Positions 1,763 to 25,513 of a stretch of DNA of 30,717 bases are shown here, piece after piece (position 1 is the stretch's first letter; each line of letters starts with the position of its first letter). Position numbers and translations under genes: made by a program. The stretch covers positions 1-30,717 of IMG/VR virus record IMGVR_UViG_3300022539_000361, one strand, 5' to 3'. The notes under the pieces were generated by a model. The model saw only the letters and a program-made list of their open reading frames with translations. It made no database searches and was not told the origin of the DNA. Origin of the DNA: a virus.

Positions 1763-4700
1763 TTAATCATTCGCATAAACTTCCTCGATGTATTCTATTG
1801 CAGTTATCTCAACCTTTTGCTCATTATTCTGTCTCAAGTTTACAATGCGATACTCCTTCGTTTCATACTCTGCCACCCCAATCGCCCAAACATCACCAGC
1901 CGCAGGAGTTGCTATAAATAGACCATCTACAGTAATATCAAATGTACCGCCATTAACTGAACTTTCAACGCAATCTATAATTGTCCTACTCTCAGGAGTC
2001 GCATCATCTGCTGTTTTCACCAATAATTTATATTCAGTTAGACCAGGACTCTCCCAATCAGCATCGTCAAATTCCACCTTACCGTCGATAGTTATTACAG
2101 CATCTCCAACATTGGTGGCAGCAATTACCCTACCACCACCTGTAATATCATCATCACCACTACCCATTTCACCATAGTTCGTAACATCATGCTGAACATC
2201 CACTACATCCCCAATCACACAAGGAATAGCCTCAATATCACTTGACCATTTTGCCAATTTCCTAATATGCTGATTCTGCAATAATCTATGTTCAGTTATT
2301 CGATTAGCCATATCAATATCAGTAATGCCAAATAGGTCAAGTCTCATCTTTCTCGTTACATTACCAGCATCTGGATTTATCAAAAGAAACGGTTGTCTTG
2401 CATAATCTTTTTGAGCATTCCTATAATGTATCTCTATTTCACTGGCTCTCTCTGCTTTGGGAATCCAAACTTCACTATAAGAATCCCTCAAAATATTACC
2501 CATTGTAAAAGCATAAACAGGATTGGCTGATTTGTCTATTGCTATGTAAATCTTATCACCATTCCAATAAGGAATACATCGACAGAGTTCACAGACTCGT
2601 AATGCTGCATCCCACATATTACTTTCAGTATCAAATCCACCATTAAAGGCAAAACGTGGTTTGTACTCTTCCACTGTACCAATAATTGAGACATGAGCAG
2701 CAATTGGTACAGTTATTGCGCTCGTTAATCCAACATCAGGTGTGACATTAAAATAATCTCTATTAGTTATATAAAAACTATCAATATGACCATCTGCATA
2801 ATAAGCTGCAGCAGATAAATATGCCCCCAACATCAACCAAGCATCATTATAATCAAATATATCACCCGCTATCATCGTATCAAAATCAATTTGAACTCCA
2901 TCTACATACAAACCGAATTTATCCCCCTTCTTTACTATTGCTATGTGATACCATTGTTCTTTATTCATTGCATAAGCAACGTCCATAATTACTTTGCCAG
3001 TTCCATCTATTATATTCGAGAATTCCAAATCACCAGCCGTCCAATCATATTCAAGAACAAAAAGGTCTAAATTTACTGAATCTTGTTCGACCATAAATAT
3101 ACAATCTGTATTAGCCGCTGCGGCATCTGCTCTCCAAAATAAACTTATTGTCCAGTCATCAGTCAAATTGCTGAACATTGGAAAAGCTGAACTTTTTGAA
3201 AATTGAACATTACTATTCGTTGCCTTCGCAACCTTAAGCGATGAAGCACCAAACTTATATTGAGCCGTATCAAGTTTAGAAGACCCTTCAAATTCAGCAT
3301 CCGCAGCATCGTGACCATAAGTTGATTCATCCCAAGCTCTATGCACAGTAGTTAATATCTCAAAATTATGCAATATTCTATCCAGATTATATGCGGTGTA
3401 AGCACTTGTATCCAAATCAATAGTAAAATGAGTATTATCTGTCACTTTCAAAACCATTGCCGTTATCCCATCTACCAATTCCGTCATCCCAGAAGAGGAG
3501 ACTCCTCTAAAAAGAACCATGCTACCAATTTTAAGATTATGTTCAGATGTGGTAGTAATAACAGCATTTACAGCTTGTGAAATACTTGCTATTCCAAAAT
3601 TCACAGGATTAATCTTAGCATCATCACACCAATCAGCCAAATCCTCAAAATCAGCATCATTCAACTTTGATGGATTATAACCGTCATATCTTTCCACTGC
3701 ATAAGAATTTCCAGGGTCAGTGTATTCACCAGTCGGCACAACAATAGTATCATCAGGTGTAGCATTTGGTGCAGCATTGAAAATGTTCTGTTTAATAATA
3801 CGAAGATGGTCGATATGACCTTGGAACCAACTACCACCATCTCCTTCTTGACCAATAAATAAAGAACCATCATAAGTATCAGCATCGGAAGATACCATCA
3901 AATCATGAGCTATTTGTGTTCCATCCAAGTACAATCCTATATTTGCACCGTCTTTACATAAAGCGACGTGATGCCAATTAGTATCGTCAATCTTGGTTCC
4001 TATTAAACTTACTTTAACAACACCAGCAATTTGATTTCCAAAATACAATCCAGCATCATGCTCATGAGCTATATACCATCTGTTATCATCGTCTTCATAA
4101 TGTGTAACTAAAAATTCATAACCAACATGGTCAGCAAATCTAACAAAGAAGTCAACTGTCCAATCATTATAAATATTCTCAAGGATATCAAAGGAATATC
4201 TATCATTAGCAATATTTACATCATCACTATCTCCATCAAGTAATAATGATGCTGTTCCAAATCTCTTTTCAGCAGTATCAAGCTCTGCTGTCCCTGTAAA
4301 ACTTATTGTATGACCTCTCTCAGAATCATCCACAGTAGAAGTAGTCCCATCCGCCCCATTAAAATTAAGCATCAAACACAAATCTAACCAAGGCGAATGT
4401 TCCCCACTAAAAACAGGCTGAGTTAATATATCATAAATAACTAATGCTGGATTGTTAGAATATATTATTGGACTCGCTGAATCTGTAATATCCACGATGT
4501 ACAAACCACGACTATAACAACTAAATCGAATTGAACCAGAAAGCTGATTCGTAGCCAATGCTTTTATACCAACTAAAGCACGTCTGGGGTGTGTGAAAGC
4601 AATATCAATAACTTCCCGAACCTTATCAAGATAAAGATGGTCACCATAACGAATATTATCTTCTTCTGCCGTTTCTTTTGTAATCCGAATCTGATAATTT

Positions 4701-22600: not shown

Positions 22601-22774
22601 TTAATCATCACCTTTCATGGCTTGCTCATACCATTTATCCAAATCTACTGCATTGGAATTCATTAATTCTTCGAGTTCACCTTCTTCCCAATCCCAACCA
22701 CCATTAGAATTATAAAATAAAGCCAGGCCCCACAATAGAACCTGGCTTCGGAGGAGGGTGATGAAAAACTCCTT
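22601..22774 (-). other. open frame after the entericidin-like gene, possible remnant
   Basis: The same frame stays open for 57 codons after the stop of the entericidin-like gene. Its last 30 codons look protein-like (GGWDWEEGELEELM, then DLDKWYEQAMKGDD). There is no ATG before the MNSNAV near the end, and the terminator stem lies within the frame. It could be the tail of a decayed gene or a short protein starting at TTG near 22735. Confidence 0.3.
22712..22748 (-). terminator. intrinsic terminator after the entericidin-like gene
   Basis: The minus strand reads AAGCCAGG, a 13-base loop, CCTGGCTT, then TATTTTAT. The 8-bp perfect stem followed by a T-rich run is a standard rho-independent terminator, and it lies 27 bases after the stop of the 22775-23116 gene. 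Confidence 0.8.
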
Positions 22775-23116: not shown

Positions 23117-23648
23117 TTTCTTCCTTTCCTTCTCCCGCTCTCAAGGTTTCAATTTCTTTTCTTAAAGTATTATCTGACAATGAAGGCAGAACACAAACAT
23201 TATTTGAATCATCAAGAATAAATAATTGCAAAGGTATACCCCATTCAATTTGAACAGCTCTAACTCTAATCATACAATTATAGTTACTTATCTGCTCAAG
23301 ACTAATTACCAAAACCTTCATATCCACTGGCATAAAAAAGTTATCAGGATAACGCAATAAAATAATGTCACCCACATAGCAACACATAGTCTTAAGGTAA
23401 TGAACATCAAATTGATAACATACATTCGATACCCTTAAATAATCTTCCTCTTCAGAATCAAATTCAGACTTACAAATCCGCTCATCACAATACTTCCTCA
23501 TCTCTCTCATCAACTTCCCATTCTGCATTCCCAAATCCAAAAGTATATCAACTGGATGAGTAAGTCGTTTTGGTTCTAATATCTGAGTAGGACAAGCCAA
23601 CGCAATACCTACCATCTTTAAGAAATCTCTACGTTTTAGTCTTTCCAT
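23100..23648 (-). CDS. unknown protein with twin-arginine-like signal
   Basis: This 182-residue protein begins MERLKRRDFLKMVGIALA, an exact KRRxFLK twin-arginine motif followed by a short hydrophobic stretch. The rest is mixed: an acidic CKSEFDSEEEDYLRV region, a cysteine pair (MCCYVGDIILLRYPD) and a beta-rich part with VLVISLEQ. I do not recognise the family. If the signal works, the protein would be exported folded by the host Tat system. It overlaps the short gene upstream by 20 bases and the entericidin-like gene downstream by 17, forming a tight cluster. Confidence 0.6.
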   Translation of the reverse strand: MERLKRRDFLKMVGIALACPTQILEPKRLTHPVDILLDLGMQNGKLMREMRKYCDERICKSEFDSEEEDYLRVSNVCYQFDVHYLKTMCCYVGDIILLRYPDNFFMPVDMKVLVISLEQISNYNCMIRVRAVQIEWGIPLQLFILDDSNNVCVLPSLSDNTLRKEIETLRAGEGKEENERED

Positions 23649-24078: not shown

Positions 24079-24109
24079 GCCCCCGCCGATTACCCTTACC
24101 GACGGGGGC
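24079..24109 (-). terminator. 12-bp GC-rich hairpin closing the RNA region
   Basis: The minus strand folds as GCCCCCGTCGGT, loop AAGGGTA, ATCGGCGGGGGC, a 12-bp stem with two G-U pairs. No T run follows on this strand, so it is either an imperfect terminator or a protective 3' stem of the RNA upstream. It is the strongest hairpin in this part of the window. Confidence 0.6.
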
Positions 24110-24193
24110 GGTTTATAATATGGGTACAAACCATATCTGCGATGATTAGCAATTGTTAAGATTCTCCGTTTAAGTCATCTCTAAGTCTCATAC

Positions 24194-24222
24194 AACCTGC
24201 TCTACCACTGAGCTACCCCTTC
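24194..24222 (-). tRNA. 5' half of permuted tRNA-like domain
   Basis: The minus strand gives acceptor GAAGGGG, TA, D stem GCTC, D loop AGTGGTA, D stem GAGC, and then AGGTT. This is a canonical bacterial D arm. It lies downstream of its 3' partner in the direction of transcription. Confidence 0.6.
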
Positions 24223-24244
24223 GGTTATAATCTATAATGACAAA

Positions 24245-24273
24245 GAAGGGGAATGGAATCGAACCATTGACCA
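24245..24273 (-). tRNA. 3' half of permuted tRNA-like domain
   Basis: The minus strand gives TGGTC (variable-loop-like), T arm AATGG-TTCGATT-CCATT and acceptor CCCCTTC, exactly complementary to the 5' acceptor at 24216-24222. No CCA is encoded. Flanking ATGAC (24278-24274) and GGTTAT (24290-24285) pair with GTCAT and ATAACC in the 22-base linker, which would enclose this half in a precursor stem. Confidence 0.6.
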
Positions 24274-24426
24274 GTCATAAAAAGATAACCTTCGACCTAA
24301 CAAACATCGCAAGGTTCAGACTTGGAGCAATAATCTCAAACTGATATGACATAGTCCCTAAGACCTTTGTCATTTTAGACTAACCCTGAGTCTAAGCCTT
24401 TTAAGCGTCCCACGGACGCCTGCTCT

Positions 24427-25161
24427 CTATTTACTTGTAAATATATAGTTGAGGATATTTTTACCAAACCCTTTTTGCTCAACTACTGTGACACTATTTG
24501 CTTCTTCCCTTGCCACCTTAACGGCATCCTGAAGTTTCTCAATGCGTTCAATGATGGCATCACGCTCTTTTTCAGGTATTGCTCCCGAAAGATGAATCGT
24601 TGTCCAATGCCCTATTGTCTTATCAACCTTAATTAATTCTGTTTGTGCCGGATGTTCTGTAGTTACAGGATACTTGACAATAACTTCAACTTTCTTCTGA
24701 GTCTTAACTGTCTTCTCAGGCTCAGTTACATAACAATTCTTTGCCTCATCCAACTTCCAAACTCTATCTGTTGGCAAAGTAGGTAGATTAGTCGCCAAAG
24801 TTCGTAAATCGATAAGTTGCTTTTCAAGGAACAATAATACTGAAACAGGTACATCCTCCAAAATCGCAACACCATTTACAATTATAGAAGCCTTGGCAGA
24901 AGTATTTGCACATTCCTGCGTTGCCACAATATTAAGGAAACCTTCTAACTTCCCTTGAACAATCTTTAGTCCATCACTCACACGAAGTTGAACTGCTCGA
25001 CTTTCCGGTGGAAATACCTCACCCTCTTCTTCCTTTGGCAAATAAGTCCGAGCAATTCCAGTTATTCTATCTGGATACCAACCACGATGAATCTCTATTA
25101 AAAGTTTCTGTGCTTTTGTCTTTCTGCCCTGTACTAAGGCAATAACTTGATTGAGTCTCAT
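24427..25161 (-). CDS. unknown protein, DUF7873-like
   Basis: This 244-residue protein starts MRLNQVIALVQGRKTKAQKLL and has ITGIARTYLPKEEEGEVFPPESRAVQLRV, an arrangement that I associate with a conserved family of unknown function (DUF7873-like) in actinobacteria and their phages. The middle has repeated hydrophobic strands and VLLFLEKQLIDLRTLATNLPTLPTDRVWKLD. The C-terminal third ends in a helical segment (KERDAIIERIEKLQDAVKVAREEAN). A GGAAAGGAATAAATT ribosome site precedes the ATG. It is flanked on both sides by tRNA-like RNAs, so a role in RNA handling is possible but unproven. Confidence 0.65.
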   Translation of the reverse strand: MRLNQVIALVQGRKTKAQKLLIEIHRGWYPDRITGIARTYLPKEEEGEVFPPESRAVQLRVSDGLKIVQGKLEGFLNIVATQECANTSAKASIIVNGVAILEDVPVSVLLFLEKQLIDLRTLATNLPTLPTDRVWKLDEAKNCYVTEPEKTVKTQKKVEVIVKYPVTTEHPAQTELIKVDKTIGHWTTIHLSGAIPEKERDAIIERIEKLQDAVKVAREEANSVTVVEQKGFGKNILNYIFTSK

Positions 25162-25208: not shown

Positions 25209-25312
25209 TAGGGTGGGTAGGATTCGAACCTACAACCTCCGGCCCCGCTCACACAACACTCGTCTGCATGAACATGGCCGGTGCTCTTATATTCCAACTG
25301 AGCTACCACCCC
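25209..25312 (-). tRNA. tRNA-like RNA with expanded anticodon arm
   Basis: The minus strand folds as acceptor GGGGTGG with CCACCCT, TA, D stem GCTC/GAGC with a 13-base loop, then a long central arm, variable AGGTT, T arm GTAGG-TTCGAAT-CCTAC and discriminator A. The total is 104 bases against about 76 for a normal tRNA. The anticodon position holds CCGGCC/GGCCGG, a 2x2 internal loop, a second 8-bp helix (GTTCATGC/GTGTGAGC, some G-U) and an 11-base loop AGACGAGTGTT. No U33-anticodon-purine loop is visible. It may be a non-decoding tRNA mimic or a tRNA with an unusual intron. No CCA is encoded. Confidence 0.6.
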
Positions 25313-25315
25313 AAT

Positions 25316-25513
25316 ATTATTGACTTTCCAAAATAATTAGGCCATCCTTGGCCTCTCGTCCCTGGTAACAAAATAAATAGTTTCATCAGCAGACATCCTT
25401 GAATACACAATCATCAAAGTATAAGGAGTTTACAATGACATCCACTATCCCTGCCTTCGTGGACAACCCGTAGTTTGACGTTGGTGTACAGGGGTCAAAT
25501 CGAGCGTCAGCAT
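25316..25513 (-). other. intergenic stretch with possible leader peptide and hairpins
   Basis: This 198-base stretch has no clear gene. A 25-codon frame at 25414-25337 (MIVYSRMSADETIYFVTRDE) is coding-like but lacks a ribosome site. A hairpin with arms TTTGAC and GTCAAA lies near 25474-25498. On the plus strand an AAGGAG precedes a 12-codon frame, which I do not count as a gene. Confidence 0.4.
25328..25354 (-). terminator. short intrinsic terminator upstream of the tRNA-like RNA
   Basis: The minus strand reads AGGCCA, loop AGGA, TGGCCT, then AATTATTTT. The 6-bp perfect stem with a short loop and following T-rich run fits a weak rho-independent terminator or attenuator ahead of the tRNA-like RNA. 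Confidence 0.5.

Follow-up and report, generated by a model that had tools for sequence, protein, structure and literature searches.

Among described RNAs, the closest to those analysed here is YrlA (Rfam RF02553), which occurs with Rsr/Ro60 and whose tRNA-like domain is described by Hughes et al. 2020 (PMC7790460); a paper on a Listeria phage (PMC12282133) refers to Chen et al. 2014 for the occurrence of Y RNAs in mycobacteriophages. The window, as the analysed DNA is called here, spans an entire IMG/VR virus record (30,717 bases) that may represent a fragment of the virus; its head and tail proteins identify it as a tailed phage. Two tRNA-like RNAs in it flank one DUF7873 gene, a 104-nt RNA on the 5' side and a permuted RNA, the DUF7873-linked RNA, on the 3' side, the latter being conserved across phages and bacteria; this arrangement was absent from a preliminary description of the same DNA. 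The larger finding of this work is the linked RNA with its permuted tRNA modules.

As in YrlA, the linked RNA is a tRNA mimic located beside its protein gene, in which T arm, acceptor hairpin and D arm are permuted, and relatives match the YrlA model at 28-44 bits. It differs from YrlA in that all the matches seen were below the gathering threshold of 69, in that its partner gene is DUF7873 and not TROVE/Rsr, and in that most DUF7873 loci have two modules and, besides these, further regions that covary. No permutation is present in the 104-nt RNA, which gave no YrlA match in the Rfam scan. A TROVE/Rsr gene was not found in the 30.7-kb record, itself possibly a fragment.

Another comparison is with the short-intron tRNA genes of archaea and eukaryotes, whose tRNAs, like the 104-nt RNA, are normal apart from an insert within the anticodon arm. 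The bulge-helix-bulge consists of two 3-nt bulges on opposite strands with 4 bp between them, whereas the 104-nt RNA has an internal loop that is 1x1 or 2x2, and its uninterrupted register gives A33. As for tmRNA, the beta_tmRNA model reached 16.6 bits against a cut-off of 84. The T-large RNA of Weinberg et al. 2017 is a large bacterial class that is said to hold tRNA-like parts, and it might be the DUF7873-linked RNA; Rfam scans of the window and its relatives gave no match to the T-large family. Literature searches on permuted tRNAs or YrlA in phages returned no paper describing the DUF7873-linked RNA, and none naming DUF7873 was found.

A 104-nt tRNA-like RNA with a closed anticodon arm

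The preliminary description had claimed a 104-base tRNA-like RNA with good acceptor, D and T arms and a long two-part helix as its anticodon arm, and had given no strand. The RNA was located on the minus strand, running from 25312 to 25209, and its parts and surroundings are as follows.

25209..25312, minus: normal-order tRNA-like RNA with a long anticodon-position helix, 104 nt (RF00005 match, fold z)
25306..25312, minus: acceptor 5' strand GGGGUGG, pairing with 25216-25210 (sequence reading)
25283..25303, minus: D arm GCUC-13 nt-GAGC (fold)
25239..25281, minus: anticodon-position arm CCGGCC/GGCCGG with an A.G mismatch and an 11-bp inner helix, 25274-25264/25256-25246 (minimum-energy fold)
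25217..25233, minus: T arm GUAGG UUCGAAU CCUAC, the T loop being UUCGAAU (sequence reading and fold)
25209..25216, minus: acceptor 3' strand CCACCCU and discriminator A, CCA not encoded (sequence reading and fold)
25339..25354, minus: terminator-like hairpin directly 5' of the 104-nt RNA (consensus match only)
24427..25161, minus: DUF7873 gene, 244 aa (PF25283, 276.6 bits)

The Rfam tRNA family RF00005 matched exactly 25312-25209 (52.3 bits, E 1.1e-8, gathering 29) over the full model (positions 1-71 of 71), the anticodon loop carrying 32 inserted nt, while ARAGORN reported 0 tRNAs over the window. The minus-strand fold had an energy of -46.7 kcal/mol (z -4.35), and 0 of 200 shuffles were equally good. 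All seven acceptor pairs are formed, including one G-U at 1-72, as are the 4/4 pairs of the D stem and the 5/5 of the T stem. The observation is confirmed. The anticodon-position arm had been drawn as 6 bp, a 2x2 internal loop, 8 bp and an 11-base loop, which is a valid drawing, but in the minimum-energy structure the 6 bp are followed by a 1x1 A.G mismatch, 11 bp and a small loop.

Like a canonical tRNA, the 104-nt RNA has acceptor, D and T arms in the normal order, but in place of the anticodon arm it forms a closed helix of about 17 bp. As had been claimed, the unspliced RNA has no U33 anticodon loop, nor any seven-base anticodon loop. Because the anticodon arm is closed and such a loop is missing, the RNA as encoded cannot decode, and its identity as a non-decoding tRNA mimic is well supported. 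A standard intron, one of the outcomes named in the preliminary description as speaking against this, was not seen, as no intron family matched between 23600 and 26000 (cmscan, E up to 5). The anticodon arm does not seem to pair with the linked RNA, since 192 of 200 shuffles gave equally strong pairing.

The RNAs and DUF7873 share a variable segment

The 104-nt RNA and the DUF7873 gene are on one strand, the RNA lying 47 nt 5' of the gene. Among viruses, the nearest relatives are L108 and L109 (85% identity in the MuF protein). They are collinear with the window up to 25725 and resume at 23648, with window 25725-23648 (2.1 kb) replaced by about 0.5 kb, and no DUF7873 was found in either record. 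Therefore, the 104-nt RNA, DUF7873 and the permuted RNA belong to one variable segment, which is missing from these relatives.

The closest DUF7873 protein (75% identical) is encoded in a Planctomycetota contig, L018, which has DUF7873 and the linked RNA in common with the window and, downstream, a tyrosine-integrase-like gene, as read from its translation. No RNA of the 104-nt type was found in the part of this locus that was examined.

An AlphaFold2 model of DUF7873 was confident (mean pLDDT 90.8), and a Foldseek search of it against the PDB gave 0 of 715 matches at E <= 0.001. A likeness to TolC (best VIA-align Z 6.8, rmsd 11.6) was treated as no lead.

Permuted tRNA modules follow DUF7873 genes

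At a distance of 1 kb, the preliminary description had also placed a permuted RNA with a long helix instead of an anticodon arm. This RNA is real and its helix has two parts; YrlA (RF02553) matches it at 24299-24168 on the minus strand with 36 bits, below gathering. Its features in the window are the following.

24079..24398, minus (approximate ends): DUF7873-linked RNA, containing one permuted tRNA module (position relative to DUF7873; words and terminal hairpin common with L002, L003, L004 and L018)
24346..24373, minus: short hairpin ATGACA...TGTCAT at the place of module 1 (sequence reading against L018)
24199..24268, minus: permuted module 2, with T arm 24268-24252, acceptor 24251-24245/24222-24216 and D arm 24213-24199 (scanner)
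24172..24291, minus: outer helix of module 2, AGGTTATCT 24291-24283/AGATGACTT 24180-24172, nine pairs (helix count)
24079..24109, minus: GC-rich terminal hairpin GCCCCCG...CGGGGGC (sequence reading; same place in relatives)

The scanner detected one permuted module in the window, and the anticodon-position helix of this module 2 has seven pairs, G·U counted. Module 1 is reduced to a hairpin in the window, where L018 has a full module. Taking both RNAs together, the proposal that these are two adjoining non-decoding tRNA mimics is supported, neither of them decoding as drawn.

DUF7873 loci were gathered from viral contigs, phages and genomes and searched with a purpose-written scanner, in which a permuted module is a succession of T arm, acceptor strand, loop, acceptor strand and D arm. 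Seven of 101 loci with less than 600 nt after the stop codon were dropped, and the remaining 94 gave 81 clusters. At least one permuted module was present within 1 kb 3' of DUF7873 in 76 of these 81 non-redundant loci, and two or more in 47; these numbers supersede a count of 84 of 100 loci made before near-duplicate removal. In the controls, the reverse strand of the same 1 kb yielded 0 modules, the other bases of the loci 2 in 419,687, and 2-mer-shuffled windows 0/810. With a second collection, from which loci with less than 150 aa or less than 600 nt after the stop were dropped, 105 of 114 non-redundant loci had at least one module and 65 had two or more. The scanner found no module in L048, L050, L068, L070 and L081 (5/81); by eye, module-like sequence was seen in L050, L068 and L070, and in L080, a relative of L081.

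Phages in which permuted modules regularly follow DUF7873 infect Gordonia, Rhodococcus, Arthrobacter and cyanobacteria, and the same succession was found in genomes of Nocardia, Streptomyces and Planctomycetota. Of 392 sampled Planctomycetota genomes, 14 carry DUF7873, and 14 of the 16 loci have a permuted module on the gene strand. N-CCA follows the acceptor strand, like a tRNA 3' end, in 42 of 123 modules.

The helices of the modules were assayed for covariation in the 48 of the 81 loci with two modules 60-160 nt apart, by comparing each locus's own strands with swapped ones. The anticodon-position helix of module 2 had at least 5 Watson-Crick pairs in 28/48 own versus 244/2256 swapped combinations, and its outer helix at least 6 pairs in 35/48 versus 329/2256; the signal for the module 1 helix was weaker (at least 6 pairs in 14/48 versus 232/2256). 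The long helix in the anticodon position of module 2 is thus shown by covariation. A free-energy comparison of own and swapped RNA parts, cruder than the helix count, gave no signal for S1-S3, as expected if those parts do not pair.

Just 5' of module 1, many loci have quasi-repeats of about six bases (GACTTA GGCTTA GAGTTA GCCTGA and variants), for example at window 24398-24373 and 3' of the gene in L018, which may permit several pairing registers. At L205:3959-4071, on the minus strand, a YrlA-like match of 39.6 bits lies on the opposite strand and convergent to DUF7873, the usual order being on the same strand.

Long-arm tRNA-like RNAs in other phages

The search for homologues that the preliminary description had proposed had a mixed outcome, with no close homologue of the 104-nt RNA but with long-arm relatives beside DUF7873 in other phages. 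An exact-word search of viral_contigs with the 29-mer of its D arm gave 0 matches, and the 23-mer covering T arm and acceptor gave 1, in L116, a different kind of phage without DUF7873; a DNA search of the phages collection with the 104-nt RNA gave no match.

Normal-order tRNA-like RNAs with a closed, extended anticodon arm were found in L012 (95 nt) and in L013, L014 and L017 (88 nt), 88-103 nt after DUF7873 and before module 1. Between L012 and L013, whose DUF7873 proteins are 76% identical, 4 of the 7 acceptor pairs show compensated changes on both sides. In the L012 and L014 records an RtcB gene lies about 1.7 kb 5' of DUF7873, a hint of RNA repair in that lineage. In the L039 locus, one RNA, at -248, contains a 21-nt loop, and two odd RNAs of greater length lie further upstream. 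The 194-kb phage record of L116 holds at least three long-arm tRNA-likes. Therefore, judging from L116 and other loci, such RNAs recur in phages beyond DUF7873. In L116 (record G001), a palindromic word, GAUUCUU...AAAGAAUCnnACAGCAAC, is dispersed (148325-149261, 154717, 155125-155242 and 79261) and lies within three tRNA-likes, in the anticodon arm of each; the 3' part of the word was found in an intergenic position and at one further site as well.

According to the scanner, long-arm forms numbered 6 near DUF7873 and 0 far from it, versus 71 near and 77 far for standard tRNAs. The six near cases are weakened in that L211 is an ordinary tRNA-Val by ARAGORN and two others represent one lineage, and two far-lying odd RNAs of L039 were missed by the scanner; the enrichment near DUF7873 is suggestive and not significant. 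Comparable long-arm RNAs adjoin DUF7873 in few lineages, most DUF7873 loci being without one. That the 104-nt RNA replaces module 1 was not kept as a rule, because L010, L021, L070 and L080, in which module 1 is reduced or missing by eye, have no such RNA.

A possible role beside a DUF7873 ribonucleoprotein

The 104-nt RNA adjoins a gene whose partner RNA is made of rearranged tRNA pieces, and for this reason it probably belongs to a tRNA-imitating machine and not to translation. Our preferred reading, with a probability of roughly 0.4, is that it is a non-decoding mimic most likely working with the neighbouring DUF7873 ribonucleoprotein, and that it forms part of this particle is plausible. 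With acceptor, D and T arms, the 104-nt RNA keeps the tRNA elbow, its anticodon arm being replaced by the closed stalk. The modules of the linked RNA have the elbow with the acceptor closed by a loop and the anticodon-position helix as the open end, and in the 104-nt RNA the same arms are connected in the opposite way, with an open acceptor and a closed anticodon-position helix. As the parts are the same and differ in the closed end, it is plausible that the 104-nt RNA is the modules' free counterpart. In this virus, where the linked RNA is short of one module, it may offer the same elbow, as a free molecule, to the binding target of the ribonucleoprotein. Candidate targets would be DUF7873 itself or a tRNA-handling host enzyme; the binding partner, the joint function and any effect on the host or on defence are what we infer. 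No locus was found in which a permuted module and an RNA of the 104-nt type demonstrably equate.

More tentatively still, DUF7873 and the linked RNA could constitute an undescribed ribonucleoprotein, present in phages and bacteria and built from several tRNA elbow modules, to which some viruses add a free mimic in normal order, a second, Ro60-independent Y-RNA-like system that would capture or guard tRNA-handling enzymes during infection. If the two form such a particle, it would be a counterpart to Ro60 and its Y RNAs that uses another protein, and cultured phages, Gordonia phage Ziko among them, would allow tests of why tRNA mimics are carried by phages. Non-decoding mimics of phages are hard to detect because tRNA finders discard them, as ARAGORN did here, and the linkage to DUF7873 supplies a genetic handle on them.

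The other explanations, each of them unlikely, are taken here in descending order of probability. The 104-nt RNA could be a degenerate tRNA without function, copied by the virus from its host, in which the insertion of a short palindrome destroyed the anticodon arm. The lack of a close homologue and the palindromic word of L116, found both inside three tRNA-likes and, in its 3' part, outside tRNAs, agree with this, as does the finding that the last 34 nt are 91% (31/34) identical to Planctomycetota initiator tRNA-Met genes; a DNA search of Planctomycetota matched in 121 of 392 sampled genomes, and 8 of 8 inspected loci were ordinary tRNA 3' halves. However, all arms are fully paired, including the 11 inner pairs, the insert has no further copy in the window or in the collected loci, and a similar arrangement with compensatory changes is kept in another lineage.

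It is also doubtful that elbow and acceptor serve as a processing signal, at which RNase P/RNase Z would cut the transcript and so release the DUF7873 message with a free 5' end, leaving the anticodon arm free to vary. The location of the RNA immediately before the gene, in the same orientation, the intact acceptor-T-arm stack and the terminator-like hairpin just upstream would suit such a signal, but a long paired stalk is unnecessary for it, the long-arm RNAs of L012 and L013 lie 3' of the gene, and a tRNA just upstream is lacking from most DUF7873 genes. In a loose scan, 41 of 95 loci had a tRNA-like on the strand of the gene and no more than 700 nt away, many of the calls being ordinary tRNA arrays or chance matches.

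That the RNA acts independently of DUF7873, as a decoy for or competitive inhibitor of a host protein that binds tRNA, be it a tRNA-targeting nuclease or another, has a low probability. An RNA with an intact elbow and no anticodon would be bindable and not cleavable in the loop, and competitive inhibition of an anticodon nuclease is proposed for the YrlA tRNA-like domain by Hughes et al. 2020 (PMC7790460). Since the 104-nt RNA has no anticodon loop for such a nuclease to cut, competitive binding is all that is left for a decoy, but nucleases that read the loop would not recognise it, and no defence target is known here.

The least probable explanation is an interrupted but decoding tRNA, from which the inner anticodon arm would be removed as an intron by an unknown splicing route to restore a seven-base loop: a 24-nt excision in a register shifted by one base can give U33 and purine 37 (AUGUCGG, AUGUUGG), L039 1401-1530 is readable as a tRNA-Phe interrupted after U33, and inserts are common to tRNA-likes of two further phage loci (described below), but in the direct register a 26-nt excision always gives A33 and never U33, the bulge-helix-bulge is missing, a group I intron would need a far longer insert and, in the 30.7-kb record (possibly a fragment), RtcB was not found.

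Other elements

The tRNA-likes of these two loci (L205:3398-3539 and L231:3610-3747) are 138-142 nt long, lie 650-870 nt after DUF7873 and carry in the anticodon arm a common structured insert, GGGGATCGAGGCCCCAT...AAGGGAATGG, for which an Rfam scan matched no family. Directly after the DUF7873-linked RNA of L074, a 65-nt tRNA-like (4121-4185) has its anticodon arm shortened to a four-pair hairpin, CCTC AATT GAGG, without an anticodon. The conserved element AGCTTTTCATCACCC.CCTCCGAAG occurs in these phage sequences at different gene borders (window 22714-22770 on the minus strand, L018:3922-3976 and L111:5141-5173) and is followed by a terminator-like hairpin in L018 and L111.
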